DNA of 64,000 nucleotides, from contig NZ_AP017378.1 in assembly GCF_003966735.1 (NCBI RefSeq), positions 3,244,905 to 3,308,904 on the forward strand, read 5' to 3'. A program made the translations under genes and the position numbers. Below the pieces are notes generated by a model that was not told where the DNA came from, did no database searches, and worked only from the letters and a program-made list of their open reading frames with translations. Positions 14,876 to 31,828 of the stretch are shown piece after piece; positions within the stretch are counted from its first letter, which is position 1; every line of letters begins with the position of its first letter. The DNA comes from Desulfovibrio ferrophilus (lineage in GTDB: Bacteria; Desulfobacterota; Desulfovibrionia; Desulfovibrionales; Desulfovibrionaceae).

Positions 14876-16258
14876 TTATTCGTTGGAGAAGATCTGGAAG
14901 CCGCTGTAGGACTCCATGCCATGTTCGGTGATGTCGAGACCCTTGAGCTCTTCTTCTTCGCTGACGCGCACGCCAACCAGAGCCTTGACCAGTGAGAAGG
15001 CGATGAAGCCGGTGCCGAAGGCCCAGACAAACACTGCGCCGACGCCGATCAACTGGGTGACGAGCTGATCCATGCCGCCGCCGTAGAAGATGCCGGTGAT
15101 GCTGCCAAAGCCGGGGGCTGCAAAGAAGGCAACCATGATGGTACCGTACGCGCCGCATACGCCGTGGACGGAGATGGCACCGACCGGATCGTCAATCTTG
15201 AGGGTCTTGTCGATGAAGACGACGGACAGCACAACCAGGATACCTGCGCCGAAGCCGACAATCAATGAACCCACGGGGGACAGTTCATAACAACCGGCGG
15301 TGATGGCAACCAGGCCAGCCAGAGCGCCGTTCATGCTCATGGAAGGCTCGGGCTTGCCAAACATCAGCCAGGAGATGATCATGGCGCCGAGCATGCCTGC
15401 GGCAGCAGACAGGGAAGTGTTCACGGCGATGTAGCCGATGGTGCCGTCAGCAACGGTGGTGGAACCGGGGTTGAAACCGAACCAACCGAACCAGAGGATG
15501 AACACGCCGAGAGCTGCCATGGGGATGTTGTGACCGGGGATGGCATTGGCTTTGCCGTCAGGGGCGTATTTGCCCAGACGGGGGCCGACGACCATGGCGC
15601 CAGCCAGGGCAACCCAGGCACCCACGGAGTGGACGACGGTGGAGCCGGCGAAGTCGGCAAAGCCCATGGCTTCGAGCCAGCCGCCGGACTCGCCCCACAG
15701 CCCGCCCCAGCACCAGTGGCCGGACACGGGATAGATCAGGCCGGTGACGATGATGCTGATAATGATATAGGCAGAGAATTTGGTGCGCTCGGCCACGCCA
15801 CCAGAAACGATGGTGGCTGCCGTGGCTGCAAACACGGACTGGAAGAACCAGAAAGTCAGCGTCCACATGCCGTCAGCCGTCGTTGCATCGACGCCGCCCA
15901 GGGCAAAGCCGGAGCTGCCCACAAAGCCGCCGATGGAGTTGCCGAACATCAGGGCAAAACCGAACAGGAAGAACGCAACGCCTCCGGCGGAGAAGTCCAG
16001 GAAGTTCTTCATGATGATGTTGCCAGCGTTCTTGGCGCGGGTGAATCCGGCCTCGACCATGGAGAATCCGGCCTGCATGAACATGACCAGGATTGCTGCG
16101 ATCAGAGTCCACAGGATGTTTGCGTTGTCCTGTGCGAGCATGGCAGGAGCCTCTTCAGCCAGGGCATTGGCAGGACAGGAAAAAAGGATGGCCAGAGCCG
16201 CAGCCGCAAAAAAGAGCGACGAGAGCGGCCGTTTCCAGATGAGCCGGTGGTTTGACAT
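14876..16258 (-). CDS. amtB: Ammonium transporter AmtB
   Basis: This 460-residue Amt/Rh channel starts with a cleavable signal peptide (about 35 residues ending near NALAEEA), then 11 membrane segments. Family signatures are GAWVALAGAMVVGPRLGKY, FGWFGFNPGST and the second pore histidine near ISVHGVCGAYGT. The start ATG at 16258 has AGGAGG upstream, and the longer frame to 16363 would begin upstream of the sigma54 promoter. The promoter at 16334-16348 and the following glnK make this a standard nitrogen-limitation operon. The cytoplasmic tail contains EEEELKGLDITEHGMESY. Confidence 0.95.
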   Translation of the reverse strand: MSNHRLIWKRPLSSLFFAAAALAILFSCPANALAEEAPAMLAQDNANILWTLIAAILVMFMQAGFSMVEAGFTRAKNAGNIIMKNFLDFSAGGVAFFLFGFALMFGNSIGGFVGSSGFALGGVDATTADGMWTLTFWFFQSVFAATAATIVSGGVAERTKFSAYIIISIIVTGLIYPVSGHWCWGGLWGESGGWLEAMGFADFAGSTVVHSVGAWVALAGAMVVGPRLGKYAPDGKANAIPGHNIPMAALGVFILWFGWFGFNPGSTTVADGTIGYIAVNTSLSAAAGMLGAMIISWLMFGKPEPSMSMNGALAGLVAITAGCYELSPVGSLIVGFGAGILVVLSVVFIDKTLKIDDPVGAISVHGVCGAYGTIMVAFFAAPGFGSITGIFYGGGMDQLVTQLIGVGAVFVWAFGTGFIAFSLVKALVGVRVSEEEELKGLDITEHGMESYSGFQIFSNE

Positions 16259-16333
16259 GTGAATCCTCCTAGAGAGTGCGACAGCGTGGTTATTGAGTGT
16301 TGATAAAAAGGGCCGCAGTTCATGCACTACTAG

Positions 16334-16348
16334 GCAATATGAGTGCCA
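16334..16348 (-). promoter_or_regulatory. Sigma54 promoter of amtB-glnK
   Basis: On the minus strand TGGCAC (16348-16343), five bases, then TTGC (16337-16334) match the -24/-12 consensus exactly. The predicted start of transcription is near 16322, about 64 bases before the amtB ATG. The AT-rich DNA at 16360-16600 is where activator and IHF sites would be expected, but I could not assign any. Confidence 0.88.
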
Positions 16349-16662
16349 AATTATGCAACTCACTGATTTTATTGGGATAAGACATTTTTATGGTCTCTTA
16401 GGGCCAGGTTAAATGTTTTAAATTAACAATTTTGTACTAGCAGCAGGTGGCCTTTAAATACACAAATGTAAATTTAGCCGCTTTTGGTACAATTTGGAAG
16501 GGTGGTTTGGCACGATGTGATACAATTTTGTCAATTTAGGTAGTTTTTGGAGGTCTGAGGATCTCTGCAACTGTCCTGAACTGATGTGAGAGACGCTATT
16601 ATATATTATATTGATAAGGCTCTAGTATTCATGATTTTTTCTTGGGTAATGAAAAAAACAGC

Positions 16663-16691
16663 TTGACAGCGCACTTGCCTGCCGATATTCA
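16663..16691 (+). promoter_or_regulatory. Sigma70 promoter of the aromatic supercluster
   Basis: TTGACA at 16663-16668 is separated by 17 bases from TATTCA at 16686-16691. The leader-peptide ATG (16699) begins 8 bases after the last -10 base, which is where transcription is expected to start. Confidence 0.8.
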
Positions 16692-16698
16692 CCTCTCC

Positions 16699-16821
16699 AT
16701 GCTTAACGAGACCCTAACCACTGCCCAGCACACCTCCACCAACAACAGCGGGAACTATTCCTGGCTGTATTTTTGGTTTTGGTTTTTTATGCCGGCCTGC
16801 GGTCAGGGTGTGAGTCGTTAA
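16699..16821 (+). CDS. Aromatic leader peptide (attenuation control of shikimate entry)
   Basis: This is a 40-codon open frame between a consensus promoter and a terminator. Codons 20-30 read YSWLYFWFWFF: four Phe, three Trp and two Tyr codons in eleven, then MPACGQGVSR and a stop. That density of all three aromatic amino acids in such a short frame is what a ribosome-stalling leader for common aromatic synthesis should show. It has no Shine-Dalgarno sequence. The ATG sits at or within a base or two of the predicted transcription start, so it is probably translated from leaderless RNA. It precedes the ADH synthase gene by 128 bases. It is not homologous in sequence to pheL or trpL. Confidence 0.85.
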   Translation: MLNETLTTAQHTSTNNSGNYSWLYFWFWFFMPACGQGVSR

Positions 16822-16886
16822 CAGCAACGAGTCGATAATCGATTACACCAAGACCGCGGGCAGATACTGCTCGCGGTCTTTTTTTG
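16795..16886 (+). promoter_or_regulatory. Attenuator: antiterminator and terminator before ADH synthase
   Basis: The terminator stem AAGACCGCG (16850-16858) pairs with CGCGGTCTT (16872-16880), and TTTTT follows. The competing antiterminator is GCCTGCGGTC (16795-16804) with GACCGCGGGC (16852-16861): ten pairs, one of them G-T. A ribosome stalled at the aromatic codons (16756-16788) leaves 16795-16804 free to pair. A ribosome that reaches the stop at 16819 would mask it, so the terminator forms. Confidence 0.82.
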
Positions 16887-16949
16887 TCGATCGCGCGCAG
16901 GCTGACCAGAGGCCACGGTGAGTAAGCTGCAACTCAGGAGAGAAGAACC

Positions 16950-17753
16950 ATGATGTTAGGTAAAGCCGTTCGCTCGGAACGTATCTTCAACCGGAACACC
17001 GGGCGAACCATCATCGTGCCTCTGGACCACGGTGTGACCGTCGGCCCCATCTACGGCCTCATCGACATGCGCGACACCGTTAATCAGATCGCCGAAGGCG
17101 GAGCCAATGCCGTGCTCATGCACAAGGGCATGCCTCGTTGTTCGCACCGAGGCTCCGGCAAGGACGTCGGCCTGATCATTCACCTTTCTGCCAGCACCTC
17201 GCTGTCTCCCTTCCCCAACGCCAAGACCCTGTGTGGCACTGTGGAAGACGCCTTGCGCCTTGGCGCGGACGGTGTGTCCCTGCACGTCAACCTGGGTGAC
17301 GAGACCGAAAAGGACATGCTCAATGCCTTGGGCGAGATGACCACTCAGGCCTCGTACTGGGGCATCCCGGTGCTGGCCATGGTCTATGCCCGCGGCCCGC
17401 ACATCAAGAATGAGTATGATCCGGATGTAGTGCGTCATTGTGCACGCGTGGGTCAGGAACTGGGTGCGGATGTCGTCAAGGTGCCCTATACTGGTGATAT
17501 CGAGAGCTATTCCCGCGTGGTGGCGAGCTGTTGCATCCCCGTAGTCATCGCGGGCGGTCCCAAATTGGAATCCACCCGTGATTTGCTGCAGATGGTGCAC
17601 GACTCCGTGCAGGCTGGCGGCGCTGGCCTGTCCGTTGGACGCAACGTGTTCCAGCATCAGAATGTGACCCGCCTCCTGAAGGCCTTGAATGGTATCGTGC
17701 ATGAAGACTGGGACCTGGATCAGGCCGAAGACTTCATGGGCGAGGATATGTAG
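16950..17753 (+). CDS. 2-amino-3,7-dideoxy-D-threo-hept-6-ulosonate (ADH) synthase
   Basis: This 267-residue class I aldolase is of the archaeal ADH-synthase type (MJ0400-like). It makes the amino-sugar precursor used by dehydroquinate synthase II, replacing DAHP synthase. Visible: GRTIIVPLDHGVTVGP, VLMHKGMP, GADGVSLHVNLG, PVLAMVYARGP, and GADVVKVPYTGD with the Schiff-base lysine in VKVPY, then IAGGPK and GLSVGRNVFQH. The start ATG follows CAGGAGAGAAG. It is the first structural gene of the supercluster, behind the aromatic attenuator. A structured repeat separates it from the next gene. Confidence 0.9.
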   Translation: MMLGKAVRSERIFNRNTGRTIIVPLDHGVTVGPIYGLIDMRDTVNQIAEGGANAVLMHKGMPRCSHRGSGKDVGLIIHLSASTSLSPFPNAKTLCGTVEDALRLGADGVSLHVNLGDETEKDMLNALGEMTTQASYWGIPVLAMVYARGPHIKNEYDPDVVRHCARVGQELGADVVKVPYTGDIESYSRVVASCCIPVVIAGGPKLESTRDLLQMVHDSVQAGGAGLSVGRNVFQHQNVTRLLKALNGIVHEDWDLDQAEDFMGEDM

Positions 17754-17759
17754 CAAGCC

Positions 17760-17880
17760 GCATCTGAGCGGTTGTCTGCTTTGTTGTTGCGAATCGTTCA
17801 AACTCTTACATCTGTCGTGATATGCGGCGATCTTGAATGATTTTTGCGCCTCGCACCCGATAGCTCATAAGTGGTTTGCT
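17760..17880 (+). repeat. Structured intergenic repeat, copy D
   Basis: It starts a few bases after the ADH synthase stop. TTTGTTGTTGC is followed by inner arms AATCGTTCAA (17792-17801) and TTGAATGATT (17833-17842), paired with one G-T, then TTTTGCGCCTCGCACCCG. The apical stem is diverged. It lies inside an operon, between genes that must be expressed together, so it is unlikely to be a full terminator. Confidence 0.7.
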
Positions 17881-17902
17881 CAAGCCAAGGGATAAGTAAA
17901 AA

Positions 17903-18880
17903 GTGATGAAGAAAGTATTTGTACAAGCCATTCCCTTCGACAAGACGTTCGTGACTCTGGCCCTGGAATCCGGCGTGGATGCGATCATCGTGGAGCCCGC
18001 TGATGTGGACAAGGTCCGCGCTCTGGCCAAGGCCGAGGTCCGCACCCTGGACGATTTCGCGGTGGTTTCTCTGCAGAGTAAGGCTGATGAGGAAGTCGCG
18101 GTCAGCCAGATGCAGGCCGGACGTCAGGTTATTCTGAAGCGCGGGTGGGAGATCATCCCTGTGGAGAACATCCTGGCTCAGGGCTCGGGTCTGGGAGTTG
18201 AAGTGGCAACCTACGACGAGGCCGATCTGGCTGCCGGCATCCTGGAGCGCGGCGTGGATTTCGTGGTGGTTACAGCCGAAGGCATCGCCGACCTGAAAAG
18301 GATAGTGGCACAACTCAAGCTCAGTCAGGGAGTCGTGGGTATGGAGAAGGCGACCATCACGGCCATCGAGAATGCGGGCCTCGGGCATCGTGTCTGCGTG
18401 GACACCACCAGCATGCTCAAGACCGGCCAGGGGATGCTCATCGGCAATTCCAGTGCATTTACTTTTCTGGTTCATGCCGAGACCGAGTCCAACCCCTATG
18501 TGGCGGCTCGCCCCTTCCGGGTCAATGCCGGGGCCGTGCATGCCTACGCAGTAATGCCCGGTGACAAGACCACCTATCTGGAAGAACTTTGCGCCGGGCG
18601 CGAGGTGCTTGTTGTGGACGCTCAGGGTCATACCTCTCTGGCGGTGGTTGGTCGGGTCAAGGTTGAAGTTCGGCCCATGTTGCTGTTTACCGCCCGAACT
18701 GAATCCGGACGTGAAGGCAAGGTTTTTCTGCAGAATGCAGAGACCATTCGCCTGGTTCGGGTCGATGGTTCACCCGTGTCTGTGGTGACACTGGCTGAAG
18801 GCGATGAGATTTTGGTTCGTACCGACGAAGCGGGTAGACATTTCGGGATGCGTATTTCCGAGGACATCAAGGAAGACTAA
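17903..18880 (+). CDS. 3-dehydroquinate synthase II
   Basis: This 325-residue archaeal-type enzyme oxidatively deaminates and cyclises ADH to 3-dehydroquinate with NAD+, in place of AroB. Family features: DAIIVEPADVDKVR, EKATITAIENAGLG, VDTTSMLKTGQGMLIGNSS, SNPYVAARPFRVNAGAVHAY and GRVKVEVRPM. The frame begins GTG-ATG (17903 and 17906); either could be the start, with AAGGGA 12-15 bases upstream. Four bases separate its stop from pheA. Its pairing with ADH synthase is the archaeal route found in some sulfate reducers. Confidence 0.92.
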   Translation: MMKKVFVQAIPFDKTFVTLALESGVDAIIVEPADVDKVRALAKAEVRTLDDFAVVSLQSKADEEVAVSQMQAGRQVILKRGWEIIPVENILAQGSGLGVEVATYDEADLAAGILERGVDFVVVTAEGIADLKRIVAQLKLSQGVVGMEKATITAIENAGLGHRVCVDTTSMLKTGQGMLIGNSSAFTFLVHAETESNPYVAARPFRVNAGAVHAYAVMPGDKTTYLEELCAGREVLVVDAQGHTSLAVVGRVKVEVRPMLLFTARTESGREGKVFLQNAETIRLVRVDGSPVSVVTLAEGDEILVRTDEAGRHFGMRISEDIKED

Positions 18881-18884
18881 CTCC

Positions 18885-20015
18885 ATGACTGATGACAAGA
18901 ACACCACCGGAGCCCAGCAAATGAATGGCTTGCGCACTGAGATCGATGCCCTGGATCGTGAGATCCTAGAGCTTCTGAATCGCCGCGCGGGTTGTTCTCT
19001 GGAAGTTGGACGCGTCAAGGCCGATGCCAAGGATCTGATCTTCAAGCCCTTCCGCGAGAAGGAAGTCATGGCGAACCTGCTCGAAATGAGCCCTGGCCCC
19101 TTGCCCGAGGATCATCTGCGCGCTATCTATCGTGAAATTTTCTCCTCATCGCGCCGTTTGCAGCGCCCGCAGCAGGTGGCCTACCTGGGCCCCGAGGGCA
19201 CGTTCTCGTATTTTGCAGGAGTCGAGTTTTTGGGACATAGCGTGGACTTTCAGCCCATGCCCGGACTGCCCGATGTGTTCCAGGCCGTGTCCAGCGGCGA
19301 GACCGAGTTGGGAATCATCCCTCTGGAGAACTCCCTGCACGGCACCGTCGGTCAGAGCCTGGACCTGTTCCTGCGCCACGAGGTATTCATTCTCTCGGAG
19401 CTGTTCTGCAAGATCAGCCACAATGTTCTGTCTCAGGCCAAGCGCCTGGCAGACATCAAGACAGTGTACTCGCATCCGCAGCCCCTGGCGCAGTGCGAGC
19501 GCTGGTTGCGCAATAACCTGCCCAGCGCCAAGCTGATACCTACTGAAAGCACCGCTGCTGCCGCCGTCCGCGTGCAGGATGATCCCGAATCCGCTGCCAT
19601 CGGACACAAGAGCCTGGCTGCCATGTTCGGGTTGAATGTCCTGGCCCGTGGGGTGGAAGATTTGCCCGACAACTGGACGCGATTCGTCGTCATTGGTCGC
19701 AAGCAGGCCTCGCAGGGCAACCGCGACAAGACTTCCATGCTCTTCACCCTGCCGGACAAGCCCGGCTCCCTGGTCAACGTGCTCTCGGTCATTGCCACCC
19801 AGGGCATCAATATGAAGAAGCTGGAGTCCCGGCCCATGCGCGGGGAAAAATGGAAGTACGTGTTTTTCGTGGATGTCGAATGCGATCTTTCCCTGGAAGA
19901 GTATTCCAAGGCCATGACCGAGGTCGCGGACAATTGCCATATCATGCGCATCCTCGGCAGTTATCCGGCCGGGCCGTCCCTGGATGTCTCCGCCAATGTG
20001 GGCGATGCTGAATAA
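18885..20015 (+). CDS. pheA: Bifunctional chorismate mutase / prephenate dehydratase
   Basis: This 376-residue P-protein makes phenylpyruvate from chorismate. The N-terminal chorismate mutase (about 10-90) shows LRTEIDALDREILELLNRRA. The dehydratase (about 95-270) shows VAYLGPEGTFSYFA, GIIPLENSLHGTVG and NWTRFVVIG. A C-terminal ACT domain (about 285-360) shows KPGSLVNVLSVIATQGINMKKLESRP, the Phe-binding GALV/ESRP-type region, so feedback inhibition by phenylalanine is expected. The start ATG at 18885 is four bases after the previous stop. Confidence 0.95.
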   Translation: MTDDKNTTGAQQMNGLRTEIDALDREILELLNRRAGCSLEVGRVKADAKDLIFKPFREKEVMANLLEMSPGPLPEDHLRAIYREIFSSSRRLQRPQQVAYLGPEGTFSYFAGVEFLGHSVDFQPMPGLPDVFQAVSSGETELGIIPLENSLHGTVGQSLDLFLRHEVFILSELFCKISHNVLSQAKRLADIKTVYSHPQPLAQCERWLRNNLPSAKLIPTESTAAAAVRVQDDPESAAIGHKSLAAMFGLNVLARGVEDLPDNWTRFVVIGRKQASQGNRDKTSMLFTLPDKPGSLVNVLSVIATQGINMKKLESRPMRGEKWKYVFFVDVECDLSLEEYSKAMTEVADNCHIMRILGSYPAGPSLDVSANVGDAE

Positions 20016-20060
20016 CGAGCCAACACCGCAACCGCGGTCTTGAATAGAGAGGAACAAGCA

Positions 20061-20285
20061 ATGCAAGTCAATTACGATCCCGAGAAGGATACCCTGAAAA
20101 TTGTGCTGTCATCCACGCCTGTGAAGAAGTGTGAGTATGACAATCCCGGCATCATCCTCGGTTACGGTGGAGACGGGACCCTTGTTGATGTGGAGATTCC
20201 TGAGGCCTCGCGCCGTGTGGATGACCCCAAGTCCGTGGACTTGTGCGTCCGTGGTCGTAATGTTCAGGGTATGAAACTCCTGTAG
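20061..20285 (+). CDS. DUF2283 family small protein
   Basis: This 74-residue protein starts MQVNYDPEKDTLKIVL and has GIILGYGGDGTLVDVEIPEASRRV, matching the DUF2283 pattern (YDxxxDxLxI...DxxGxLVGIEILxAS). DUF2283 proteins are small beta-rich proteins of unknown function, often near toxin-antitoxin or metabolic genes. Here it lies between pheA and aroA, six bases before aroA, inside an operon otherwise made only of aromatic enzymes. A start at 20040 is possible, but 20061 fits family length. Confidence 0.8.
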   Translation: MQVNYDPEKDTLKIVLSSTPVKKCEYDNPGIILGYGGDGTLVDVEIPEASRRVDDPKSVDLCVRGRNVQGMKLL

Positions 20286-20291
20286 GGGATA

Positions 20292-21626
20292 ATGATGCAG
20301 ACCACCGGCACAGTTCATATCCAGGCTCCTGCCAGCAAATCTATGTCGCATCGCGCGGTCATTGCCGCTTCCCTTGCAGACGGGCGCAGCCTGCTGCACA
20401 ACGTTCTGGATAGCGACGACCTGACACGCACCATGGATTGTCTGAAGGCCTGCGGGGCCAGCTTTGAATTCAAGGGACGCGACCTGGAGGTTGTTGGCGT
20501 TGCGGGTCGTCCCCGTGGCGGTTCGGATGAGCCTGCCGATCTCTACATGCACGAATCCGGCACCACCTGCCGTTTGATGACGGGAGTGGCTGCAGCCGGG
20601 CAGGGGTTGTTCCGGGTGCGAGGCGTGCAGCGCATGCACGAGCGTCCCATCGGAGCTCTGGCCAAGGCCTTGGCTTCCCAGGGCGTTGACTTTACCTGGG
20701 AGGGCCAGGAAGGCTACCCACCGCTGGTGATGCGGACCGAAGGCCTCCCGGGTGGCGAGATCACCGTGGATGTGGGCGAGTCCAGCCAGTATCTTTCCGG
20801 TTTGCTTCTGGCCGCAGTCTGTGCCGGATCCGAGACCGTGATCAATATTGGCGGGACCAAGGTCGTTTCCTGGCCATACGTGGCACTGACCCTGCAAACA
20901 CTTGAAGATTTTGGTATTTCATTTGCCGTTGAATGCCAGGAAGCCGGGCGTTGGGTGGAGACTGCCTGGAGGGCCGTGACCACCGTGGCCCCCGGACAGA
21001 TCCGTTTCCGTGTGTCTCCCGGTGCCTACGCCGCAGGCGATCGCCGGGTGGAAGGCGACTGGAGTAATGCTTCGTATTTCCTGGCCGCTGGTGCCGTTGG
21101 CCCTCGCCCGGTGGTGGTTTCGGGACTGCGCCGTGATTCCCTGCAGGGGGATCGCGCCATGCTTTCCATTCTGGAACGCATGGGCGCCCGCATCACCTGG
21201 CAGGACGATGCCGTGACCGTGGCTCCGCCCGAATCCGGCAGGCTTGTCGGGCTCGAAGTGGATATGGCGTCCTGCCCGGACATCGTGCCCACCGTGGCCG
21301 CTGCAGCAGCCTTTGCGGATGGCCCAACGCTGATCAGCGGTGTGGCGCATCTGCGTATCAAGGAATGTGACCGTCTGGACGGCACCGCCGGGACCCTGCG
21401 CAAGGCCGGGACCACAGTGGAGGTGTTGGACGACGGGCTGAAGATCATCCCCGGTGCTCTGGCCCAAGAGGGTGATCTTCCCGTGACCACCTTTGGCGAT
21501 CATCGCATGGCCATGAGTTCGGCCTTGTTTGCCCTGGCCGGGATGTCCGTGAATTGTGACGATGCGGGTTGCGTCTGCAAATCCTTCCCCACATTCTGGG
21601 ACGAATGGAACAAGGTTGTTTCTTAA
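20292..21626 (+). CDS. aroA: 3-phosphoshikimate 1-carboxyvinyltransferase (EPSP synthase)
   Basis: This 444-residue enzyme joins shikimate 3-phosphate and PEP. Motifs: ASKSMSHRAVIAAS, ESGTTCRLMTGVAA, MHERPIGALAKAL, GESSQYLSGLLLAA, LRIKECDR and FGDHRMAMS. The LMTGVAA form, rather than LTAAV, is seen in diverse bacterial enzymes. The start ATG (20292, with a second ATG directly following) lies just after the DUF2283 gene. The intermediate genes for shikimate (aroD, aroE, aroK, aroC) are not in this window. Confidence 0.95.
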   Translation: MMQTTGTVHIQAPASKSMSHRAVIAASLADGRSLLHNVLDSDDLTRTMDCLKACGASFEFKGRDLEVVGVAGRPRGGSDEPADLYMHESGTTCRLMTGVAAAGQGLFRVRGVQRMHERPIGALAKALASQGVDFTWEGQEGYPPLVMRTEGLPGGEITVDVGESSQYLSGLLLAAVCAGSETVINIGGTKVVSWPYVALTLQTLEDFGISFAVECQEAGRWVETAWRAVTTVAPGQIRFRVSPGAYAAGDRRVEGDWSNASYFLAAGAVGPRPVVVSGLRRDSLQGDRAMLSILERMGARITWQDDAVTVAPPESGRLVGLEVDMASCPDIVPTVAAAAAFADGPTLISGVAHLRIKECDRLDGTAGTLRKAGTTVEVLDDGLKIIPGALAQEGDLPVTTFGDHRMAMSSALFALAGMSVNCDDAGCVCKSFPTFWDEWNKVVS

Positions 21627-21659
21627 CTTTTTCAATGAACTTAGAGTATTGAGTTGATT

Positions 21660-22424
21660 ATGAACATTAAGAACATCCTCATTATCGGTGCACAGGGCCA
21701 AATGGGTCGTCTGTTCGTCCGGCGTAGCGAAGAAGCCGGACTGACAGTGCGCGGTTTGGACCGACCACTGACGCCCGAGGCCATGGCCCAGGGCGTGCGC
21801 GGGGCTGATATGGTGCTGCTGGCAGTGCCTGCGGCTGCCATGGCCGATGTCTCGGGGATGTGCGCGGCTGTGATGGAACCGCACCAGATTCTGGCTGACA
21901 TCTGTTCGGTCAAGACCGGCCCCATGGCTGATATGCTGACCGCCCACACCGGGCCGGTCGTAGGCACACATCCCTTGTTCGGGCCTGCTCCCGATCCGGA
22001 GGATGTGCGCGTGGCCATGGTGCCCGGGCGTGATGATGCGGCTTTCGCGGCTGTGTCTGCCTACATGGAGCAGCTGGGCTTTACTTCCTTTACCACGGAT
22101 AGTGATGAACATGATCTGGCCATGGCCTCCATTCAGGGCCTCAATTTCGTGACCACGGTGTCCTATCTGGCGACCCTTGCCAATCGGCCCGAGTTCGAAC
22201 GGTTCATCACCCCCAGCTTCAATCGCCGTCTGGACGCGGCGCGCAAGATGCTGACCGAAGACAGCGAGCTGTTCTCCAGTCTTGTGGAAATCAATCCCTA
22301 CACACAGGAAGCCATTCGCAACTTCCGTTCCCTGCTGAACATCGCCGCTGGTGGAGACATCGAGCTTCTCTCCGCGCGCGCCAATTGGTGGTGGCGAAAT
22401 GGGCATAGTGGGGGGGGAGTGTAA
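21660..22424 (+). CDS. tyrA: Prephenate dehydrogenase, with Trp-Trp-Trp tail
   Basis: This 254-residue NAD-dependent dehydrogenase converts prephenate to 4-hydroxyphenylpyruvate. Visible: IIGAQGQMGRLFVRR (dinucleotide site), DICSVKTGPMADM, VGTHPLFGPAP and EHDLAMASIQGLNF. It lacks a chorismate mutase or ACT domain. The ATG at 21660 is preceded in frame by TTG at 21654. The C-terminus reads ANWWWRNGHSGGGV: three consecutive Trp codons (22386-22394) twelve codons before the stop, just upstream of a terminator that precedes trpE. I infer that the tail serves as the stalling peptide for trp attenuation. Confidence 0.9.
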   Translation: MNIKNILIIGAQGQMGRLFVRRSEEAGLTVRGLDRPLTPEAMAQGVRGADMVLLAVPAAAMADVSGMCAAVMEPHQILADICSVKTGPMADMLTAHTGPVVGTHPLFGPAPDPEDVRVAMVPGRDDAAFAAVSAYMEQLGFTSFTTDSDEHDLAMASIQGLNFVTTVSYLATLANRPEFERFITPSFNRRLDAARKMLTEDSELFSSLVEINPYTQEAIRNFRSLLNIAAGGDIELLSARANWWWRNGHSGGGV

Positions 22425-22489
22425 CCGGCAAGGGCCGGAAAATCGAATACAAGCCGCGCCTCCCCACAAGGAAGCGCGGCTCTTTTTTT
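22383..22489 (+). promoter_or_regulatory. Attenuator of trpE-A using the tyrA tail
   Basis: Three Trp codons (22386-22394) end the tyrA frame, whose stop is at 22422. The terminator is AGCCGCGC (22452-22459) with GCGCGGCT (22474-22481) followed by seven T. The competing pair is the G-rich 22408-22419 (GTGGGGGGGGAG) with CTCCCCAC (22460-22467). A ribosome stalled at Trp leaves the G-tract free to disrupt the terminator; one at the tyrA stop covers it. A small CCGGC/GCCGG hairpin lies between. Confidence 0.8.
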
Positions 22490-22518
22490 AGAAAAATTAG
22501 TTAGTTAAGGAGGAGCAT

Positions 22519-23934
22519 ATGGAACCAGTACGGTTGCAGCAGTACGGACAATGGCTGCCTGCGGATATTCAGACCCCCATCAGCCTTTTTCTGGGTCTGG
22601 TGGGACACAAGCAGGGTATCCTGTTGGAAAGTGCAGAGGTGGATGGCCGCTTTGGTCGCTACTCCATCATTGCCTGGAACTACGCCCTGCGTCTGTCCTG
22701 CAAGGACGGCAAACTTGAAGTCGGCGTACGTGATGGCCGTTTGGATGCGTTCAAGGAATTCAAGGGACGGCCCTTTATGGACGGTGTTCGTCAGGTCATG
22801 AAGAACCTGAACATCGAGCCTGCCGAAGGCTTCGAGGAGCTGCCGCCCATCACCCGCGGGCTGGCCGGATATTTCGGCTATGGCGTGGCCGGGATGTTCG
22901 AACCCAAGCTGGAGAATCAGCTGCATCCCGAAGATGCCGAGGCCTGTCTGGTGCTGCCCGGCAATGTGGTGATGTTCGACCATCTCTACCACCGTCTGTG
23001 TTTTCTGACCCTGAACAAGGGCGTCAAGCCGCATTCGGACCACAAGAGCGTGATGCGTGCACCCATGCCGCCGGATATCGGCGAACACAAGGTCAACCCC
23101 GGTGAAGCTGCCTACAAGAAGAGTGTGTCCGATGCCATCGAACTGATCCGCCAGGGCGAGTGTATTCAGACCGTGCTCTCCACACGCTTTTCGGCCCCCT
23201 TCGAGGGTGACTCCTTTGTGCTGTATCGCAGACTCAGGCAGATCAACCCATCGCCCTACATGTTCTACATGCGGCTGCCCAAGCTGGAGCTATTTGGCTC
23301 CTCACCGGAGATGCTGGTGCGTTGTAGAGGCGACGAACTGACCACCTGTCCCATCGCGGGCACTCGTGTGCGCGGCGAAAACGCCGCCGAGGACGAACGT
23401 CTGGCCGAGGAACTGCTGGCCGATCCCAAGGAACGCGCCGAGCACGTGATGCTGGTGGATCTGGGGCGCAATGACCTGGGACGGTTGTCCGAGCCGGGTA
23501 GCGTGAAGGTGGACAAGTTCATGCAGGTCGAGCGTTTTTCGCATGTGATGCACATCACTTCCTATGTCAGCGGCAAACTGCGCAAAGGGCTGGATGCATT
23601 GGATGTGTTGGGGGCGACCTTCCCGGCGGGAACGGTTTCGGGCGCGCCCAAGGTGCGGGCCATGGAGATTATCGCCGATTTGGAACGCGAGCCCCGTGGT
23701 CCCTATGCGGGAGCCATCGGCTGGATCGGTCTGGATGAAGGGCGCGTTGATCTGGATACCGGTATCACCATTCGCAGCATGTGGGTGCGCGATAATGTGC
23801 TCTCATGGCAGGCCGGTGCGGGCATCGTCTTTGATTCGGACCCCGCCAAGGAATGGGCCGAGTGCAACAACAAGGCCCGTGTGATTCGCGAGACACTGGC
23901 TGGCAAGGGAGGCTGCGATGTTCTTGCTGATTGA
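22519..23934 (+). CDS. trpE: Anthranilate synthase component I
   Basis: This 471-residue chorismate-binding enzyme makes anthranilate with TrpG. Motifs: LLESAEVDGRFGRYSI (the LLES feedback site near residue 36), SPEMLVRCRGDEL, TCPIAGTRVRGE, RAEHVMLVDLGRNDLGR, FPAGTVSGAPKVRAMEII and DSDPAKEWAECNNKA. The start follows AAGGAGGAG, one of the strongest ribosome sites in the window. It is the first gene of the trp block, 30 bases after the terminator T-run. The LLES element suggests tryptophan feedback inhibition. Confidence 0.96.
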   Translation: MEPVRLQQYGQWLPADIQTPISLFLGLVGHKQGILLESAEVDGRFGRYSIIAWNYALRLSCKDGKLEVGVRDGRLDAFKEFKGRPFMDGVRQVMKNLNIEPAEGFEELPPITRGLAGYFGYGVAGMFEPKLENQLHPEDAEACLVLPGNVVMFDHLYHRLCFLTLNKGVKPHSDHKSVMRAPMPPDIGEHKVNPGEAAYKKSVSDAIELIRQGECIQTVLSTRFSAPFEGDSFVLYRRLRQINPSPYMFYMRLPKLELFGSSPEMLVRCRGDELTTCPIAGTRVRGENAAEDERLAEELLADPKERAEHVMLVDLGRNDLGRLSEPGSVKVDKFMQVERFSHVMHITSYVSGKLRKGLDALDVLGATFPAGTVSGAPKVRAMEIIADLEREPRGPYAGAIGWIGLDEGRVDLDTGITIRSMWVRDNVLSWQAGAGIVFDSDPAKEWAECNNKARVIRETLAGKGGCDVLAD

Positions 23935-24499
23935 TAATTATGACTCCTTCACTTTCAATCTGGTGCAGGCTTTTCAGTTACTGGGCAAGGACCCCGTGGT
24001 CGTCAAGAATGATGACCCGCAGGTGCTGGAACTGGCCGCAAGCCCGGATTTGGAGATGGTCTGCCTGTCTCCCGGGCCGAGCCGCCCTGTGAATGCTGGC
24101 CTGTGCCTGAATTTTCTGGAGAAGCTGCCACACTCGGTGCCCGTGCTGGGCGTCTGCCTGGGGCATCAGACTCTGGGGCATTTTGCCGGAGCCGAGGTCA
24201 TCCAGGCCGGGCTGATCATGCATGGCAAGACCTCCATGATTACTCACGATGGCGAGGGGCTGTTTGCGGACATGCCCAATCCCGTGGAGATTGGTCGTTA
24301 CCACTCGCTGTTGGTGGATGTGGACAATGCGCCCGAGGACGTCCGCAAGCTGTTGACCGTCACTGCCCGTACCGAGGCTGGCGAGGTCATGGCCATGAAA
24401 TACAATGATCGTCCCTGGGTGGGCGTGCAGTTCCACCCGGAATCCGTCCTGACCCCCGAAGGTCTGAAACTGCTGGCCCGGTTCCCCGAAGGACTCTAG
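23918..24499 (+). CDS. trpG: Anthranilate synthase component II (glutamine amidotransferase)
   Basis: This 193-residue class I glutamine amidotransferase supplies ammonia to TrpE. It has IDNYDSFTFNLVQ, LSPGPSRP, the nucleophile in GVCLGHQTLGHFAG, and VQFHPESVLTPEG with the catalytic His and Glu. It overlaps the 3' end of trpE by 17 bases. It is a separate gene, not fused to trpD. The same subunit could also serve PabB. Confidence 0.96.
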   Translation: MFLLIDNYDSFTFNLVQAFQLLGKDPVVVKNDDPQVLELAASPDLEMVCLSPGPSRPVNAGLCLNFLEKLPHSVPVLGVCLGHQTLGHFAGAEVIQAGLIMHGKTSMITHDGEGLFADMPNPVEIGRYHSLLVDVDNAPEDVRKLLTVTARTEAGEVMAMKYNDRPWVGVQFHPESVLTPEGLKLLARFPEGL

Positions 24500-24561
24500 G
24501 CATGAGCAGTTTGAGGCGAAGAATCCTGTTCAACAGCATGCAACGCAAAGGAGCGATGAAT

Positions 24562-25563
24562 ATGGCTATGCATATGGCGGACATCTTGGAGCAGTTGGCC
24601 TTTCACAAGGATCTGCCCCAGGACATGGCAAACGAGAGTTTTGCCCGATTAATGGATGGCACAATGACCCCGGCTCAGGCTGGTTCCTTCCTGATGGGCC
24701 TGAAGACCAAGGGCGAAACCGCCGAGGAACTCGCCGCAGCAGTCAACGCTGCCCTGTCCCACGCACGCATGGTTCCCGGGCTTTCGGGCAAGCGCATCGA
24801 TACCTGTGGCACCGGTGGTGACGGCTCCAGCAGTTTCAACTGTTCCACTGCCGTGGCATTGACCTTGGCCGGGATGGGCTATCAGGTGGTCAAGCATGGC
24901 AACCGTTCGGTCTCCAGCACCTGTGGCAGTGCCGATGCCCTGGAGGCTCTGGGGCTGAATCTGAATCTCCAGCCGGGTGACGTGGCGGCAGAACTGGCAC
25001 GGCGCAATTTCGTGTTCCTGTTCGCCCCGGGCTATCATCCGGCCTTCAAGCACATCATGCCCGTGCGACAGGAGATCGGCTGCCGAACCCTGTTCAATCT
25101 GCTGGGCCCTCTGCTGAATCCCGCGCGACCCACTCACCAGTTGCTGGGGATCGCCATTCCCGGTTTTCTGCACCGCATGGCCAAGGTTCTGTCCCTGACA
25201 GGGGTTCAGAAAGCCTGCGTAGTCCACGGAGCCGGTGGGTTCGACGAGCTGACACCCTTTGGTGTAAATCAGGTCGTGTACGTGCGCGATGGCTGGTTGC
25301 GTGAGGATGTCCTTGACCCCGCCAGACTGGGCATGGCCGCCAGCAGCCCCGAAGACATGGCTGTGAAGGACAAGGACGAGGCTGTGGCTGTGCTGCGTGA
25401 GATTCTTGCCGGAGGCGGACCCGAGCCCATGCGCGACATGGTGGCCCTGAATGCCGGAATGTGTGTGCACCTGTTGGAGGATGATTTGTCCCTGGCCGAT
25501 GGTGTGGACAAGGCACGTGAGGCCCTGGCCTCCGGTGCCGGGGAGAAGACCCTCAATGCTTAG
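24562..25563 (+). CDS. trpD: Anthranilate phosphoribosyltransferase
   Basis: This 333-residue enzyme transfers phosphoribose from PRPP to anthranilate. Motifs: DTCGTGGDGSSSFNCST, VKHGNRSVSSTCGSADALEALG, FLFAPGYHPAFKHIMPVRQEIG and RTLFNLLGPLLNPA. Several in-frame ATGs exist (24502, 24556, 24562). I chose 24562 because GGAG stands 8 bases upstream and the length then matches the family. It overlaps trpC by eight bases. Confidence 0.94.
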   Translation: MAMHMADILEQLAFHKDLPQDMANESFARLMDGTMTPAQAGSFLMGLKTKGETAEELAAAVNAALSHARMVPGLSGKRIDTCGTGGDGSSSFNCSTAVALTLAGMGYQVVKHGNRSVSSTCGSADALEALGLNLNLQPGDVAAELARRNFVFLFAPGYHPAFKHIMPVRQEIGCRTLFNLLGPLLNPARPTHQLLGIAIPGFLHRMAKVLSLTGVQKACVVHGAGGFDELTPFGVNQVVYVRDGWLREDVLDPARLGMAASSPEDMAVKDKDEAVAVLREILAGGGPEPMRDMVALNAGMCVHLLEDDLSLADGVDKAREALASGAGEKTLNA

Positions 25564-26329
25564 GAAATTCGCCGACGCCAAGCGCTCCGAGATCATGGAG
25601 CTGCTGGGCCGGGATGCGCGGGGCGAGATGCCTGCGCCCATGACCGGTCCACGACCTTCGTTTTCCGGGGCGCTCAGAACCAAGGGGCCGGGCGCAGTCA
25701 TCGCGGAATACAAGCGGGCCTCGCCCAGCAAGGGCGTCATCAATCTGGAGTTGACGGCTGCGGATGTGGCGCGGGGCTATGCGGGAGGCGGTGCCGCCTG
25801 CATGTCCGTTTTGACGGAAGTGGATTATTTTCAAGGTGATCTGGCTTATCTGGACGAAGCACTGGTTGCAGGGATTCCGTTGCTGCGCAAGGATTTCATC
25901 CTGCATCCGTTGCAGATCCGGCGGACGGCTGCAACCCCGGCTTCCGCCGTGCTGCTCATTGCTCGCATGGTGGAGACTCGGGAGTTGTCCGAACTGCTCG
26001 AACTGTGCGATCACTATGGTCTGGAAGCAGTGACCGAGGTCTTCGACGCCAAGGATCTGGCCAAGGCCCGCGAGGCCGGGGCCAGGATCATCCAGGTCAA
26101 CAATCGCGATCTGGACAGCCTGACCATCAGCCTTGATGTGTCGCGCAGTCTGATCGGTGCCAAGACCCCGGAGGAACTCTGGATCAGTGCCAGCGGCATC
26201 GACCATGGCTCGCAGATTACCGAATTGGCTTCTTTGGGCTTTGATGCCGTGCTCATCGGCACCTTCCTGATGGAGGGAGGTGATCCCGAGGGCGCTCTGA
26301 AACGCTTGATCAAGGAAACAGACGCATGA
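25556..26329 (+). CDS. trpC: Indole-3-glycerol phosphate synthase
   Basis: This 257-residue TIM barrel closes the indole ring. Visible: VIAEYKRASPSKG (catalytic Glu and Lys), SVLTEVDYFQG, LLRKDFILHPLQI (KDF), VNNRDLDSLTI and SASGIDHGS. The start ATG at 25556 lies inside the end of trpD. The enzyme is not fused to TrpF, unlike in enterics. The trpF start overlaps its stop by four bases (ATGA). Confidence 0.95.
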   Translation: MLRKFADAKRSEIMELLGRDARGEMPAPMTGPRPSFSGALRTKGPGAVIAEYKRASPSKGVINLELTAADVARGYAGGGAACMSVLTEVDYFQGDLAYLDEALVAGIPLLRKDFILHPLQIRRTAATPASAVLLIARMVETRELSELLELCDHYGLEAVTEVFDAKDLAKAREAGARIIQVNNRDLDSLTISLDVSRSLIGAKTPEELWISASGIDHGSQITELASLGFDAVLIGTFLMEGGDPEGALKRLIKETDA

Positions 26330-26964
26330 CCGACAGCCGACAGCTCATCAAGATCTGTGGCATGACCCGCCAGCAGGACGCCACGGCTTGCGTGGACGCA
26401 GGCGTGGACATGACCGGATTCATTTTTCATGAGTCCAGCCCGCGCAACATCCAGCCCGGTGCCGCCGCTGCCATCGATACAGGCTCTGCCTTACGGGTGG
26501 GCGTGTTCGTACGCCAGTCCCAGCAGCAGGTGTTGGAGATCATGGATCGGGCCAAGCTCGATCTGGCCCAGTTGTGTGGTGATCAGGACCGGGCCTTTTG
26601 CCGGGCCGTGGGAGCCACGCGCGTGATTCGCGTCTTTTGGCCCGAGCGCCACAAGATGCGTGCTGCCCTGGAAGATGAGATGTCGGATTATGACGGGTGC
26701 ATGGCCTATGCCCTGCTTGATGCCGGGATGTCCGGCGGCGGTCATGGCCGTGCCCAGGATTTCGGGTTGCTCAGGGGACTGGATGCTCCGGTGCCCTGGA
26801 TGCTGGCCGGGGGTCTGAGTGTGGACAATCTGCCCGAGGCCATGGCCCAGTGCCAGCCGCAAGGCTTTGATTTGAATTCCGGTCTGGAATCGGCACCCGG
26901 CTTGAAGGACGCGGAGCTTGTCCGTCGAGCCGTGGCTCTGATCAGAAGCGGGAATAACGAATAA
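26326..26964 (+). CDS. trpF: Phosphoribosylanthranilate isomerase
   Basis: This 212-residue TIM barrel performs the Amadori rearrangement of phosphoribosylanthranilate. It has KICGMTRQQDA with the catalytic Cys, GFIFHESSPRNI and FDLNSGLESAPGLKD (phosphate-binding loop and C-terminal signature). YALLDA carries the general-acid Asp. It is translationally coupled to trpC by the ATGA overlap and followed 38 bases later by trpB. Confidence 0.93.
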   Translation: MTDSRQLIKICGMTRQQDATACVDAGVDMTGFIFHESSPRNIQPGAAAAIDTGSALRVGVFVRQSQQQVLEIMDRAKLDLAQLCGDQDRAFCRAVGATRVIRVFWPERHKMRAALEDEMSDYDGCMAYALLDAGMSGGGHGRAQDFGLLRGLDAPVPWMLAGGLSVDNLPEAMAQCQPQGFDLNSGLESAPGLKDAELVRRAVALIRSGNNE

Positions 26965-27002
26965 TACAGCATTGAAGGCCTGTGTACGGCCTGGAGGATA
27001 GA

Positions 27003-28169
27003 ATGAAGAAAGGGTATTTTGGAGACTTCGGCGGGCGTTTTTCGCCCGAACTGCTCATGCCTCCCCTGCTGGAGGTTGAGGACGCCTACAAGACCATTGT
27101 CAAAAGCAAGCCTTTCCTGACGGAATTCGGGCGTATTCTGACCGAGTATGTGGGGCGTTCAACGCCTCTGACCTTTTGTCCCAATCTGAGCAGGGAACTG
27201 GGCTTCAACCTGTATCTGAAGCGCGAGGACCTGGCGCACACCGGCGCGCACAAGATCAACAACACCATCGGGCAGGCCCTCTTGGCCAAGCATATGGGCA
27301 AGAAGACCCTGCTGGCTGAAACCGGTGCGGGGCAGCACGGCGTGGCCACGGCCACGGCTGCGGCCTATCTGGGTCTGAATTGTATCGTTTACATGGGCGC
27401 CACCGACGTAAAGCGTCAGGCCCACAATGTGCGGCGTATGCAGCTTCTGGGCGCCGAGGTCCGGCCCGTTGAATCCGGCACCAAGACCCTGAAGGACGCC
27501 ATCAACGCAGCCTTCCGATTCTGGATTTCCGAGCAGGCCGATACCCATTACTGCTTCGGTACTGCGGCCGGTCCGCATCCCTTCCCGGCACTGGTGCGTG
27601 ACTTCCAGTCCGTGGTGGGCCACGAGGCACGCCAACAGAGCGTGGAGCAGTTCGGCACTCTGCCGGATCTGCTTGTGGCCTGTGTGGGCGGTGGCTCCAA
27701 TGCCATTGGTCTGTTCCATGCCTTCATGGACGACCGTGACGTGCGCATGGTGGGTGTGGAAGCCGCAGGTTCCGGCGAGCCCGGCTGTTACCATTCCATG
27801 GCGATCTGCAAGGGCACACCGGGTGTTTTCCACGGTGCACGCACCCAGTTGTTGCAGACCGAAGACGGGCAGATCGAGCCTTCGCATTCCATCGCTCCCG
27901 GCCTGGATTATCCGGGCGTCGGTCCCGAGCATGCCTGGTTGGATGCCTCGGGCCGTGCCGAGTACGTCAGCGTCAACGATGCCCAGGCCTTGAATGCCTT
28001 CCAGTCCCTGTGTCGGCACGAGGGCATTATCCCGGCTTTGGAATCCTCCCACGCCGTAGCCTATGTGCTGGAATACAAGGATGACATCCCCGCAGGTTCC
28101 AAGGTCATCGTTAACCTCTCGGGGCGAGGGGACAAGGATATGGGCATCATCGAAGAATATCTGGGGTAA
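27003..28169 (+). CDS. trpB: Tryptophan synthase beta chain (operon copy)
   Basis: This 388-residue PLP enzyme of the TrpB1 type joins indole and serine. Motifs: YFGDFGGRFSPEL, LKREDLAHTGAHKINNTIGQ with the PLP lysine, [26 protein letters not shown] and [10 protein letters not shown]. The start at 27003 has GGAGG upstream; an ATG-less extension to 26982 is less likely. A structured repeat follows its stop, 255 bases before trpA, an unusually long gap for a trpBA pair that must supply a complex. Confidence 0.96.
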   Translation: MKKGYFGDFGGRFSPELLMPPLLEVEDAYKTIVKSKPFLTEFGRILTEYVGRSTPLTFCPNLSRELGFNLYLKREDLAHTGAHKINNTIGQALLAKHMGKKTLLAETGAGQHGVATATAAAYLGLNCIVYMGATDVKRQAHNVRRMQLLGAEVRPVESGTKTLKDAINAAFRFWISEQADTHYCFGTAAGPHPFPALVRDFQSVVGHEARQQSVEQFGTLPDLLVACVGGGSNAIGLFHAFMDDRDVRMVGVEAAGSGEPGCYHSMAICKGTPGVFHGARTQLLQTEDGQIEPSHSIAPGLDYPGVGPEHAWLDASGRAEYVSVNDAQALNAFQSLCRHEGIIPALESSHAVAYVLEYKDDIPAGSKVIVNLSGRGDKDMGIIEEYLG

Positions 28170-28171
28170 GG

Positions 28172-28300
28172 AAGGCCATCCATGGCGCACGGTCTGCGGC
28201 GTTGCTGCGGATTGTTCAGCCCTTCATGTATGTTGAATATACATCGGACCTGAACAATCTTTGCGCCTGACATCCCGCACACCCTGAACGGCCTTTGGCC
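28172..28300 (+). repeat. Structured intergenic repeat, copy E
   Basis: It starts two bases after the trpB stop. The outer arms AAGGCC (28172-28177) and GGCCTT (28290-28295) pair. The inner arms GATTGTTCAG (28210-28219) and CTGAACAATC (28250-28259) pair perfectly. The apical stem is ATGTAT/ATACAT, then TTTGCGCCTGACATCCCG follows. It occupies most of the trpB-trpA gap. Confidence 0.82.
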
Positions 28301-28424
28301 CGGGGGATGCACATTCCAAACGAATTTCCCGGTGGGGAGCGATTGGAATGGAAAAGTCGGAAAATTGAATCAGATCGGATAGAAAAGCATCACACTGCGG
28401 TGAAGATCGCAGAGGAGAAAATAC

Positions 28425-29186
28425 ATGTCGAATTTGAGTGAAAAAATACGAGAGGCCAATGCCAAGGGCCGCAAGGCTGTGATTCCCTATCTGCCCGCCG
28501 GGTTCCCGGGGCTCACCGAGTTCTGGGACGTGATCAAGGAACTGGACGCCGCCGGGGCGGACGTCATTGAAATCGGTGTGCCGTTCTCCGACCCTGTTGC
28601 CGATGGTCCCACCGTGGAACAGGCCTGTCTGGAAAGCCTGGAGCTGGGCGTGACACTGAAATGGATTCTGGAGGAACTGCCCAAGCATCGCGCCGGGATC
28701 AAGGCCGGAATCGTGCTCATGGGCTATTTGAATCCGTTCCTGCAATACGGGTTGGAGAAACTTGCCAAGGACGCAGCCGCAGCTGGTGTTGGCGGGCTGA
28801 TCATCCCGGACGTGCCCTATGAGGAAGCCCAGGAGATGAAGGAGATTCTTGGTGCCCAGGGCATCGATTTCATCTATCTGGTGGGCCTCAATACCCCGCC
28901 CGAGCGTTTGAAGATGTATGCGAGTAATGCCAGCGGCTACGTGTATCTGGTGTCCGTGATGGGCATTACCGGTGCGCGCACCAGCCTGCCCAAGGAGATC
29001 GGTGACAAGATCATCGAGGTCAAGGAAGCCTTTGACGTTCCTCTGGCCCTTGGGTTTGGCATCAAGACTCCAGACCAGTTGGAAGCCTTTGGCGATAAGC
29101 TGGATGGGGCGGTTATTGGCTCCGCGCTTATCGACCATATTCGGGGGGGAGGTTCGGCCAAGGAGTTTCTCTCACCTTGGGTCTAG
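28425..29186 (+). CDS. trpA: Tryptophan synthase alpha chain
   Basis: This 253-residue TIM barrel cleaves indole-3-glycerol phosphate to indole for TrpB. Visible: AVIPYLPAGFPGL, DVIEIGVPFSDPVADGPT (catalytic Glu and the Asp loop), PDVPYEEA, GYVYLVSVMGITGARTSLP and ALGFGIKTPDQ. The start follows GCAGAGGAG. It is the last gene of the trp block, separated from trpB by repeat E and followed by the double-hairpin repeat F. Confidence 0.96.
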   Translation: MSNLSEKIREANAKGRKAVIPYLPAGFPGLTEFWDVIKELDAAGADVIEIGVPFSDPVADGPTVEQACLESLELGVTLKWILEELPKHRAGIKAGIVLMGYLNPFLQYGLEKLAKDAAAAGVGGLIIPDVPYEEAQEMKEILGAQGIDFIYLVGLNTPPERLKMYASNASGYVYLVSVMGITGARTSLPKEIGDKIIEVKEAFDVPLALGFGIKTPDQLEAFGDKLDGAVIGSALIDHIRGGGSAKEFLSPWV

Positions 29187-29210
29187 GCGACTGAAAACGC
29201 ACCGTCTACT

Positions 29211-29352
29211 TTGTTAAGTGATTTGTTGGTGAGTCATCGAGCCTACAAATCACTTACTACGCCCCAAGTGTACTGCAAAAGTCCCGGACTCTTGCGTATG
29301 TTCAGATACGCGTTGAGTCCGGGACTTTTTTGTGCCTTGTATCCGGCCCTTT
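29211..29352 (+). repeat. Structured intergenic repeat, copy F (modules II and I)
   Basis: Module II: AAGTGATTTGT (29216-29226) pairs perfectly with ACAAATCACTT (29245-29255), followed by CCCCAAGTGTACTGC. Module I: AAAAGTCCCGGACTC (29277-29291) pairs perfectly with GAGTCCGGGACTTTT (29315-29329), with apical GCGTAT/ATACGC (29294-29299, 29306-29311), then TTGTGCCTTGTATCCGG. The T-run after the second stem may end the trp transcript. From 29353 to 29596 I see no gene or clear site. Confidence 0.85.
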
Positions 29353-29596
29353 TTGAGCCGCCAGGGGAAGAGGACGAGGTCACCAGGGGAGAGCAGCGGA
29401 GAGATACGAGGACAATTCAGAATTTGGGAAAGAGTATTGAGAACCTGCGGCCTCGAAAAACATGATTGAACAGATGGATATGATCAGGTGGGATTATTGG
29501 TGATGGTGTGCATGACAATAATTATCTAAGATGTGCGCGACAGCGACAGAGTGACACGGTTGTTAGAGTCCATCGAGAAGGCAAGGTGCAAAGCCC

Positions 29597-30028: not shown

Positions 30029-30077
30029 GTCCTCTCGTGCCTGCAGAAGAGTTCAATCAAATAAATCAGGAAAACAG

Positions 30078-30716: not shown

Positions 30717-30770
30717 GGGGCACAGAGCATTGATGCTCTCCCCATTGAAAAGTGTGGGGGGGAGAAATCA

Positions 30771-30813
30771 AAAGGGGCAGGGGGCTTTTCTGCAAAGCCT
30801 CCTGCCCCTTTTT
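30771..30813. terminator. Bidirectional rho-independent terminator
   Basis: AAAGGGGCAGG and CCTGCCCCTTT form the base of a long stem extended by GGCTTT/AAAGCC around TCTGC. It has T-runs on both strands. It separates the convergent LysE-type and prepilin peptidase genes. Confidence 0.9.
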
Positions 30814-30842
30814 AATCTGTTGTGGGCTCAATCCTTCGGGGT

Positions 30843-31679: not shown

Positions 31680-31828
31680 GCGCGATTGTCCCTGGTTGAA
31701 TGGAAAATCGATTTGAGGCATTGTGACGCGAACTTTTCAGCAGTCCGAGTCTGCACGGTATGGGTACTGGATTTTGCGGACTCGGACAACCCGTCCGAAG
31801 CACAGGACAAGGCAAGGAGACGGCAGAC

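Follow-up and report, generated by a model that had tools for sequence, protein, structure and literature searches.

Leader-peptide attenuation is textbook biology, and the leader is usually taken to be a disposable peptide. In the Escherichia coli trp leader, trpL, tandem Trp codons are combined with pairing of regions 2 and 3 when the ribosome stalls and with an intrinsic terminator, formed by regions 3 and 4, ahead of trpE. Leader RNA that carries no ribosome is expected to terminate. The kinetic scheme of E. coli trp attenuation has been described (PMC1183508). A second E. coli element, the intercistronic rph-pyrE attenuator (Bonekamp et al. 1984), which is cited in PMC6941894, responds to UTP through the coupling of translation and transcription. 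In that system, whether transcription terminates before the next gene depends on how the last part of a genuine preceding gene is translated. This element is not known to have control codons or a covarying antiterminator.

For Desulfovibrio vulgaris, the excerpted text of PMC1173090 gives an aro-trp supraoperon in the order aroA'-aroB'-pheA-aroF-tyrA-trp operon, which is also the gene order of the DNA analyzed in this study. In the same excerpt its authors discuss attenuators near tyrA, taken from a database of predictions; the D. vulgaris account, as far as excerpted, mentions neither an attenuator at the tyrA-trpE junction nor a role for the TyrA tail. No earlier account of a TyrA-tail attenuator was found in the open-access literature that we searched, and an earlier prediction may exist in subscription work on trp operon evolution, in surveys of proteobacterial attenuation, or in attenuator databases.

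In this study, we analyzed a stretch of 64,000 nucleotides from Desulfovibrio ferrophilus (NZ_AP017378.1, positions 3,244,905 to 3,308,904), referred to below as the window. We assign a probability of about 0.88 to the reading that its tyrA-trpE junction is a Trp-responsive, ribosome-mediated transcription attenuator with the C-terminus of TyrA as leader peptide. Like trpL, the junction contains in-frame tandem Trp codons and an intrinsic terminator before trpE, and its geometry agrees with a ribosome footprint model. A mutually exclusive 2:3 antiterminator that covaries with the terminator is present as well, overlapping only the upper terminator in many species. Unlike in trpL, the proposed leader is the C-terminal end of a biosynthetic enzyme encoded upstream, with region 2 inside its coding sequence. 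Because the open reading frame is full-length TyrA and not a dedicated short leader peptide without other function, the device is not an ordinary member of the trpL type. As in rph-pyrE, the upstream stop codon (ending at 22424) lies close to the start of the terminator (22452). In contrast to the UTP signal of that system, the TyrA-tail device would sense one amino acid; its Trp codons and covarying antiterminator argue for a signal other than UTP-dependent pausing.

Architecture of the tyrA-trpE junction

The following features were assigned at the junction:

21660-22424, forward strand: tyrA (prephenate dehydrogenase, 254 aa; Pfam PDH_N), whose last codons form the putative attenuator leader
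22386-22394, forward strand: three tandem Trp codons TGGTGGTGG, control codons (region 1), in frame in tyrA
22408-22416, forward strand: R2, 5' strand of the antiterminator, GUGGGGGGG, located where tyrA encodes Ser-Gly-Gly-Gly
22422-22424, forward strand: tyrA stop codon TAA; in the model, R2 is covered when the ribosome is at this codon
22425-22438, forward strand: small hairpin CCGGCAAGGGCCGG, which lies between R2 and R3 and is surrounded by the antiterminator
22452-22489, forward strand: intrinsic terminator AGCCGCGCCTCCCCACAAGGAAGCGCGGCTCTTTTTTT ahead of trpE
22459-22467, forward strand: R3, 3' strand of the antiterminator, CCUCCCCAC, comprising the terminator loop and the upper part of the 5' arm
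22519-23934, forward strand: trpE (anthranilate synthase component I), the first gene under the predicted attenuator control

As read from the window, the C-terminal tail of the tyrA product is NWWWRNGHSGGGV, also written out as SARANWWWRNGHSGGGV and ARANWWWRNGHSGGGV, each followed directly by the stop codon. An initial annotation, made from the letters of the window, had placed three Trp codons twelve codons before this stop and a terminator between tyrA and trpE. Both were confirmed: the first Trp codon is 12 codons ahead of the tyrA stop, with nine codons separating WWW from TAA, and the terminator at 22452-22489 has a folding energy of -20.7 kcal/mol (z = -5.0 versus dinucleotide shuffles). 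A simple consensus terminator scan did not pick up this terminator, which is probably explained by a C.A mismatch in its stem. The pairing that the same annotation had proposed between a G-tract and the terminator proved real and slightly longer than claimed, consisting of 9 bp between GTGGGGGGG (22408-22416) and CCTCCCCAC (22459-22467). Its view that no start codon for a separate leader lies near the Trp codons also held, since the closest in-frame starts upstream of WWW were a GTG at -34 codons and an ATG at -46, both without a Shine-Dalgarno-like sequence.

R2 starts 13 nt past the last Trp codon in the window. The predicted fold of a transcript that ends before the 3' arm of the terminator is the 9-bp antiterminator around the small hairpin, and locus L003 has a comparable hairpin, CCGGCAACAGCCGG, at the equivalent position. 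No promoter-like site was found between 22100 and 22600. As a single sequence, the case is weak, because the folding energy of the whole region is ordinary (z = -0.26) and TGGTGGTGG is present three times in the window. At the level of sequence, it is the comparison with relatives that raises the candidate attenuator above chance.

Conservation, spacing, and covariation across the order

A single-protein search of contigs matched only one near relative (L032), and whole-genome searches guided by kinship were used instead. TyrA was found in 311 of 348 genomes of the host's order, and 113 tyrA junctions were read. Tail Trp codons together with a G-rich segment complementary to a terminator before trpE were present at 65 of these 113 loci, with representatives in all six sampled families. 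A run of three or four Trp codons occurred in 64 of the 65.

R2 was defined as the best complementary stretch, so that its exact ends are model dependent. Across 60 loci, the distance from the last Trp codon to the start of R2 was 16.1 ± 2.2 nt. In shuffled leaders, the standard deviation of this spacing was 17.0 nt versus the 2.2 nt observed. The distance from the start of R2 to the stop codon was variable (standard deviation, 7.8 nt), and in several species, e.g., at loci L011, L012, and L045, R2 was located at or past the tyrA stop codon. The complementarity of R2 to the terminator of its own species scored higher than that to the terminators of other species (mean, 23.3 versus 17.5), and none of 10,000 permutations was as good. 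With one locus per genus, the corresponding scores were 22.9 and 17.6 (0 of 20,000 permutations). In many species, the pairing of R2 was confined to the loop of the terminator and its upper half. Examples of covarying R2/terminator pairs are as follows:

L017: GAGGGAGCGCG with CGCGCTCCCTC
L023: GGGACGCGGC with GCCGCGTCCC
L037: TGGGAGGATG with CATCCTCCCA
L045: TAGGAGAATA with TATTCTCCTA

Codon usage in the tail was also distinctive. Glycine was encoded by GGG (45%) and GGA (43%) in 88% of cases, compared to 25% and 16% (41%) over the remainder of these genes (P = 3e-17 by chi-square test), a shift that points to selection acting on the RNA rather than on the protein. Outside the tail, attenuator TyrAs contained a mean of 0.14 Trp residues versus 1.00 in other TyrAs, values that are uncorrected for kinship. 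Such scarcity would be expected if ribosomes must not stall earlier in tyrA. At one locus (L107), the tyrA frame continues past WWW into a sequence resembling the reverse complement of a tRNA gene.

Ribosome footprint and folding models

A ribosome with the standard footprint, which reaches 13 nt when counting starts at the first nucleotide of the codon in the A site, was modeled at 60 loci. With the ribosome positioned on the first or last Trp codon, R2 was free in all 60, and the mean probability of the antiterminator in the partial transcript was 0.93. When it was moved to the stop codon, it covered half or more of R2 in 58 of 60 loci, and the antiterminator probability fell to 0.03. In completed transcripts, the full terminator was usually the more stable structure at equilibrium; therefore, the choice of the antiterminator must be kinetic and made during transcription.

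These positions suggest the following mechanism. When Trp-tRNA is scarce, the ribosome nearest behind RNA polymerase would stall at the Trp codons at 22386-22394. R2 (22408-22416) would then lie just past its leading edge and could pair with R3 once the latter is transcribed. This pairing would pre-empt the terminator, so that trpE and the genes beyond it are transcribed. When Trp is plentiful, the ribosome would reach the tyrA stop codon and cover R2, the terminator would fold, and transcription would stop before trpE. That the switch depends on Trp-tRNA, that the steps follow this kinetic order, and that trp expression is affected are what we infer.

One element of the E. coli system was not recovered, as folding of the window and the 60 loci revealed no 1:2 protector (pause) hairpin. 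Without a ribosome, R2 remained free, and the probability of R2:R3 pairing was 0.70 to 0.94 in the window; the antiterminator probability exceeded 0.5 in 49 to 56 of the 60 loci when 24 to 200 nt of upstream RNA was included. Owing to the lack of a protector hairpin, untranslated tyrA RNA should thus read through into trpE, in contrast to ribosome-free RNA in E. coli, which is expected to terminate. A failure of tyrA translation should, on this model, raise rather than lower trpE readthrough, unless Rho intervenes.

Free-standing Trp leaders upstream of detached trpE

All 17 genomes examined in which trpE is located away from tyrA (L130 to L146) contained a short leader open reading frame with Trp codons, an R2, and a terminator before trpE. 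Runs of Trp codons were found in 16 of these 17 leaders, L140 having a single Trp codon. R2 started 15.6 ± 2.0 nt after the Trp codons. Two examples, each running to its stop codon, are as follows:

L130: MNSFSNTISNSFKGWWWRIQLRGGDVRA, free-standing Trp leader before trpE
L132: MLNAFSLTFSAYRWWWRVVDVKGGVRPA, free-standing Trp leader before trpE

The free-standing leaders (e.g., L130, L132, and L142) share Trp codons, R2, the terminator, and the spacing of 15 to 16 nt with the TyrA-tail device. They differ in being short separate open reading frames with a start codon of their own, whereas the TyrA-tail device uses the tail of the enzyme instead. They amount to a natural experiment: where trpE moves away, a free-standing leader of the same geometry is found. 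The main group with detached trpE forms one clade of the TyrA tree, and other cases are placed elsewhere in it. Because families f2 to f6 carry the TyrA-tail form, an ancestor of this form is the simplest guess from the unrooted tree.

Tryptophan tail in TyrAs lacking the attenuator and alternative explanations

The initial annotation had expected WWW exclusively where trpE follows tyrA. In this strict form the expectation failed, since WWW was kept in 24 of 48 TyrAs without the attenuator, whereas 64 of the 65 TyrAs that have the attenuator carry it (P = 2.7e-10 by Fisher test, related genomes not being independent). The former count is slightly too high, because one locus scored as lacking the attenuator (L100) shows a terminator but ends at the end of its contig. 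A tree-based test of WWW against the attenuator offered only four well-supported independent contrasts, and it was underpowered and not significant. A few adjacent tyrA-trpE pairs (g10, g13, g22, g14, g32, and g47) had WWW but no recognizable attenuator. WWW in TyrAs that lack the attenuator does not overturn the mechanism, because trpE has a Trp leader of its own in the detached genomes examined. It does indicate that the run is kept in part at the level of the protein, above all its last two Trp residues. In an alignment of 16 TyrA sequences, W244 was invariant and W245 nearly so, with W243 being the variable one; part of the Trp run therefore has a protein-level reason, and it looks as though the last two Trp residues alone are conserved for the protein. 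The WWW tail was absent from TyrAs at 23 loci of the phylum that lie outside the order, so that it has no counterpart there for comparison. In one clade (L008, L034, L066, L080, L081, L098, L115, L122, and L123), the start of trpE overlaps the tyrA stop codon and the attenuator is gone. The first Trp of the run is substituted in this clade (AEAWWT, AAAWW, and ATWW).

It could be argued that WWW is kept for the TyrA protein only, with a plain and partial terminator before trpE, and that trpE expression is set by the leakiness of this terminator or by a promoter of its own. The near invariance of the last two Trp residues even without an attenuator, and the persistence of WWW in clades with detached trpE, would fit such a view. 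It leaves unexplained, however, the constant spacing from Trp codons to R2, the R2:R3 covariation, the shift to GGG and GGA, the position of R2 at or beyond the stop codon at L011, L012, and L045, and the Trp leaders ahead of detached trpE; the absence of a promoter-like site between 22100 and 22600 speaks against a separate promoter. We regard this explanation as very unlikely, although it survives better than the two that follow.

Alternatively, a separate short leader might be translated from an internal in-frame start near the end of tyrA, in which case translation of full-length TyrA would not be the sensor. In 37 of the 65 attenuator loci, the 60 codons preceding the Trp run did contain an in-frame ATG, GTG, or TTG with a Shine-Dalgarno-like stretch, often a GTG at -24 in a QEAV motif. 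The remaining 28 loci had no such start, and conservation of the protein accounts for the GTG in QEAV. In the window, the corresponding codon of this motif is ATT, and the starts at -34 and -46 have no Shine-Dalgarno-like sequence. An internal leader is accordingly less probable still.

Least probable is a general response to tyrA translation by polarity, as in E. coli rph-pyrE, without specificity for Trp. Such a response would suit a stop codon near the terminator and the active translation to be expected of an enzyme gene. It does not account for runs of three or four Trp codons in 64 of 65 attenuator loci with almost no Trp elsewhere in those TyrAs, for a position of R2 that is fixed relative to the Trp codons rather than to the stop, or for the finding that 16 of the 17 replacement leaders contain Trp runs.

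The attenuator elements, their covariation, the fixed spacing, and the replacement by free-standing leaders are all present in the genomes compared. Together with the recoding of glycine, they favor the original proposal that ribosomes finishing TyrA would operate a trp attenuator that differs from the usual dedicated leader. What also needs amending is its place in the operon, as attenuation at the tyrA tail is supported but would not be the sole control: a conserved Phe/Tyr/Trp leader precedes the first aro gene.

Operon context and upstream attenuator

In the window, the aromatic supraoperon consists of a gene for a DeoC/LacD-family aldolase (16950), followed by genes for 3-dehydroquinate synthase II and chorismate mutase-prephenate dehydratase, a small gene, EPSP synthase, tyrA, trpE, and further genes. 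A small open reading frame of about 74 codons is located at 20061-20285 between pheA and aroA. The upstream attenuator comprises the following features:

16699-16821, forward strand: leader open reading frame MLNETLTTAQHTSTNNSGNYSWLYFWFWFFMPACGQGVSR (ending in NYSWLYFWFWFFMPACGQGVSR and a stop codon) before the first aro gene, mixed aromatic attenuator
16795-16804, forward strand: R2 GCCTGCGGTC, in Ala-Cys-Gly codons
16850-16886, forward strand: terminator, with R3 at 16852-16861

This leader peptide is of the conventional type and rich in Phe, Tyr, and Trp. It was conserved at 65 of 68 loci, 59 of which also had the terminator, and R2 of relatives likewise lies over Ala-Cys-Gly (or Ala-Arg-Gly) codons. 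The operon thus seems to be controlled at two successive points, the first responding to Phe, Tyr, and Trp together and the second only to Trp.

Control of the host genes by TrpR or by a known RNA family such as the T-box was considered and rejected. No TrpR was found in 38 of 39 genomes searched for a Trp_repressor match, including that of the host, and positions 15000-32000 of the window gave no Rfam match, T-box included. The sole Trp_repressor family match among the 39 relatives, in G016 (L175), was partial (positions 35-77) and located within an open frame of 736 codons; it is probably not a TrpR.

Published RNA sequencing data are available for Desulfovibrio hydrothermalis (PMC4162548). 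At 26 versus 0.1 MPa, the cluster through trpF was downregulated, whereas at 10 versus 0.1 MPa only trpE, trpG, and trpD were listed as down and not the upstream aro genes or tyrA. This pattern would fit a cluster that is co-regulated as a whole but has a further regulatory step of its own between tyrA and trpE.

Implications

In the device proposed here, it is the end of a working enzyme, conserved across an order, and not a disposable peptide that carries both the sensor codons and one strand of the antiterminator. Searches that look for short leader open reading frames, whether by gene finders or by RNA families, would miss enzyme-tail devices, so others may exist at gene junctions elsewhere. 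A broader reading, to which we give slightly less than an even chance, is that the enzyme tail and the free-standing leader are interchangeable across the order, leaders having arisen from the end of tyrA, or fused with it, on more than one occasion. By the same tentative reading, the lack of a protector hairpin would make expression the default state of the trp genes, with complete translation of TyrA needed to turn them off; synthesis of the Tyr enzyme would in this way gate Trp synthesis. Both the protein sequence at the end of TyrA (WWW...GG) and its choice of codons appear to have been shaped by RNA regulation of the genes that follow.
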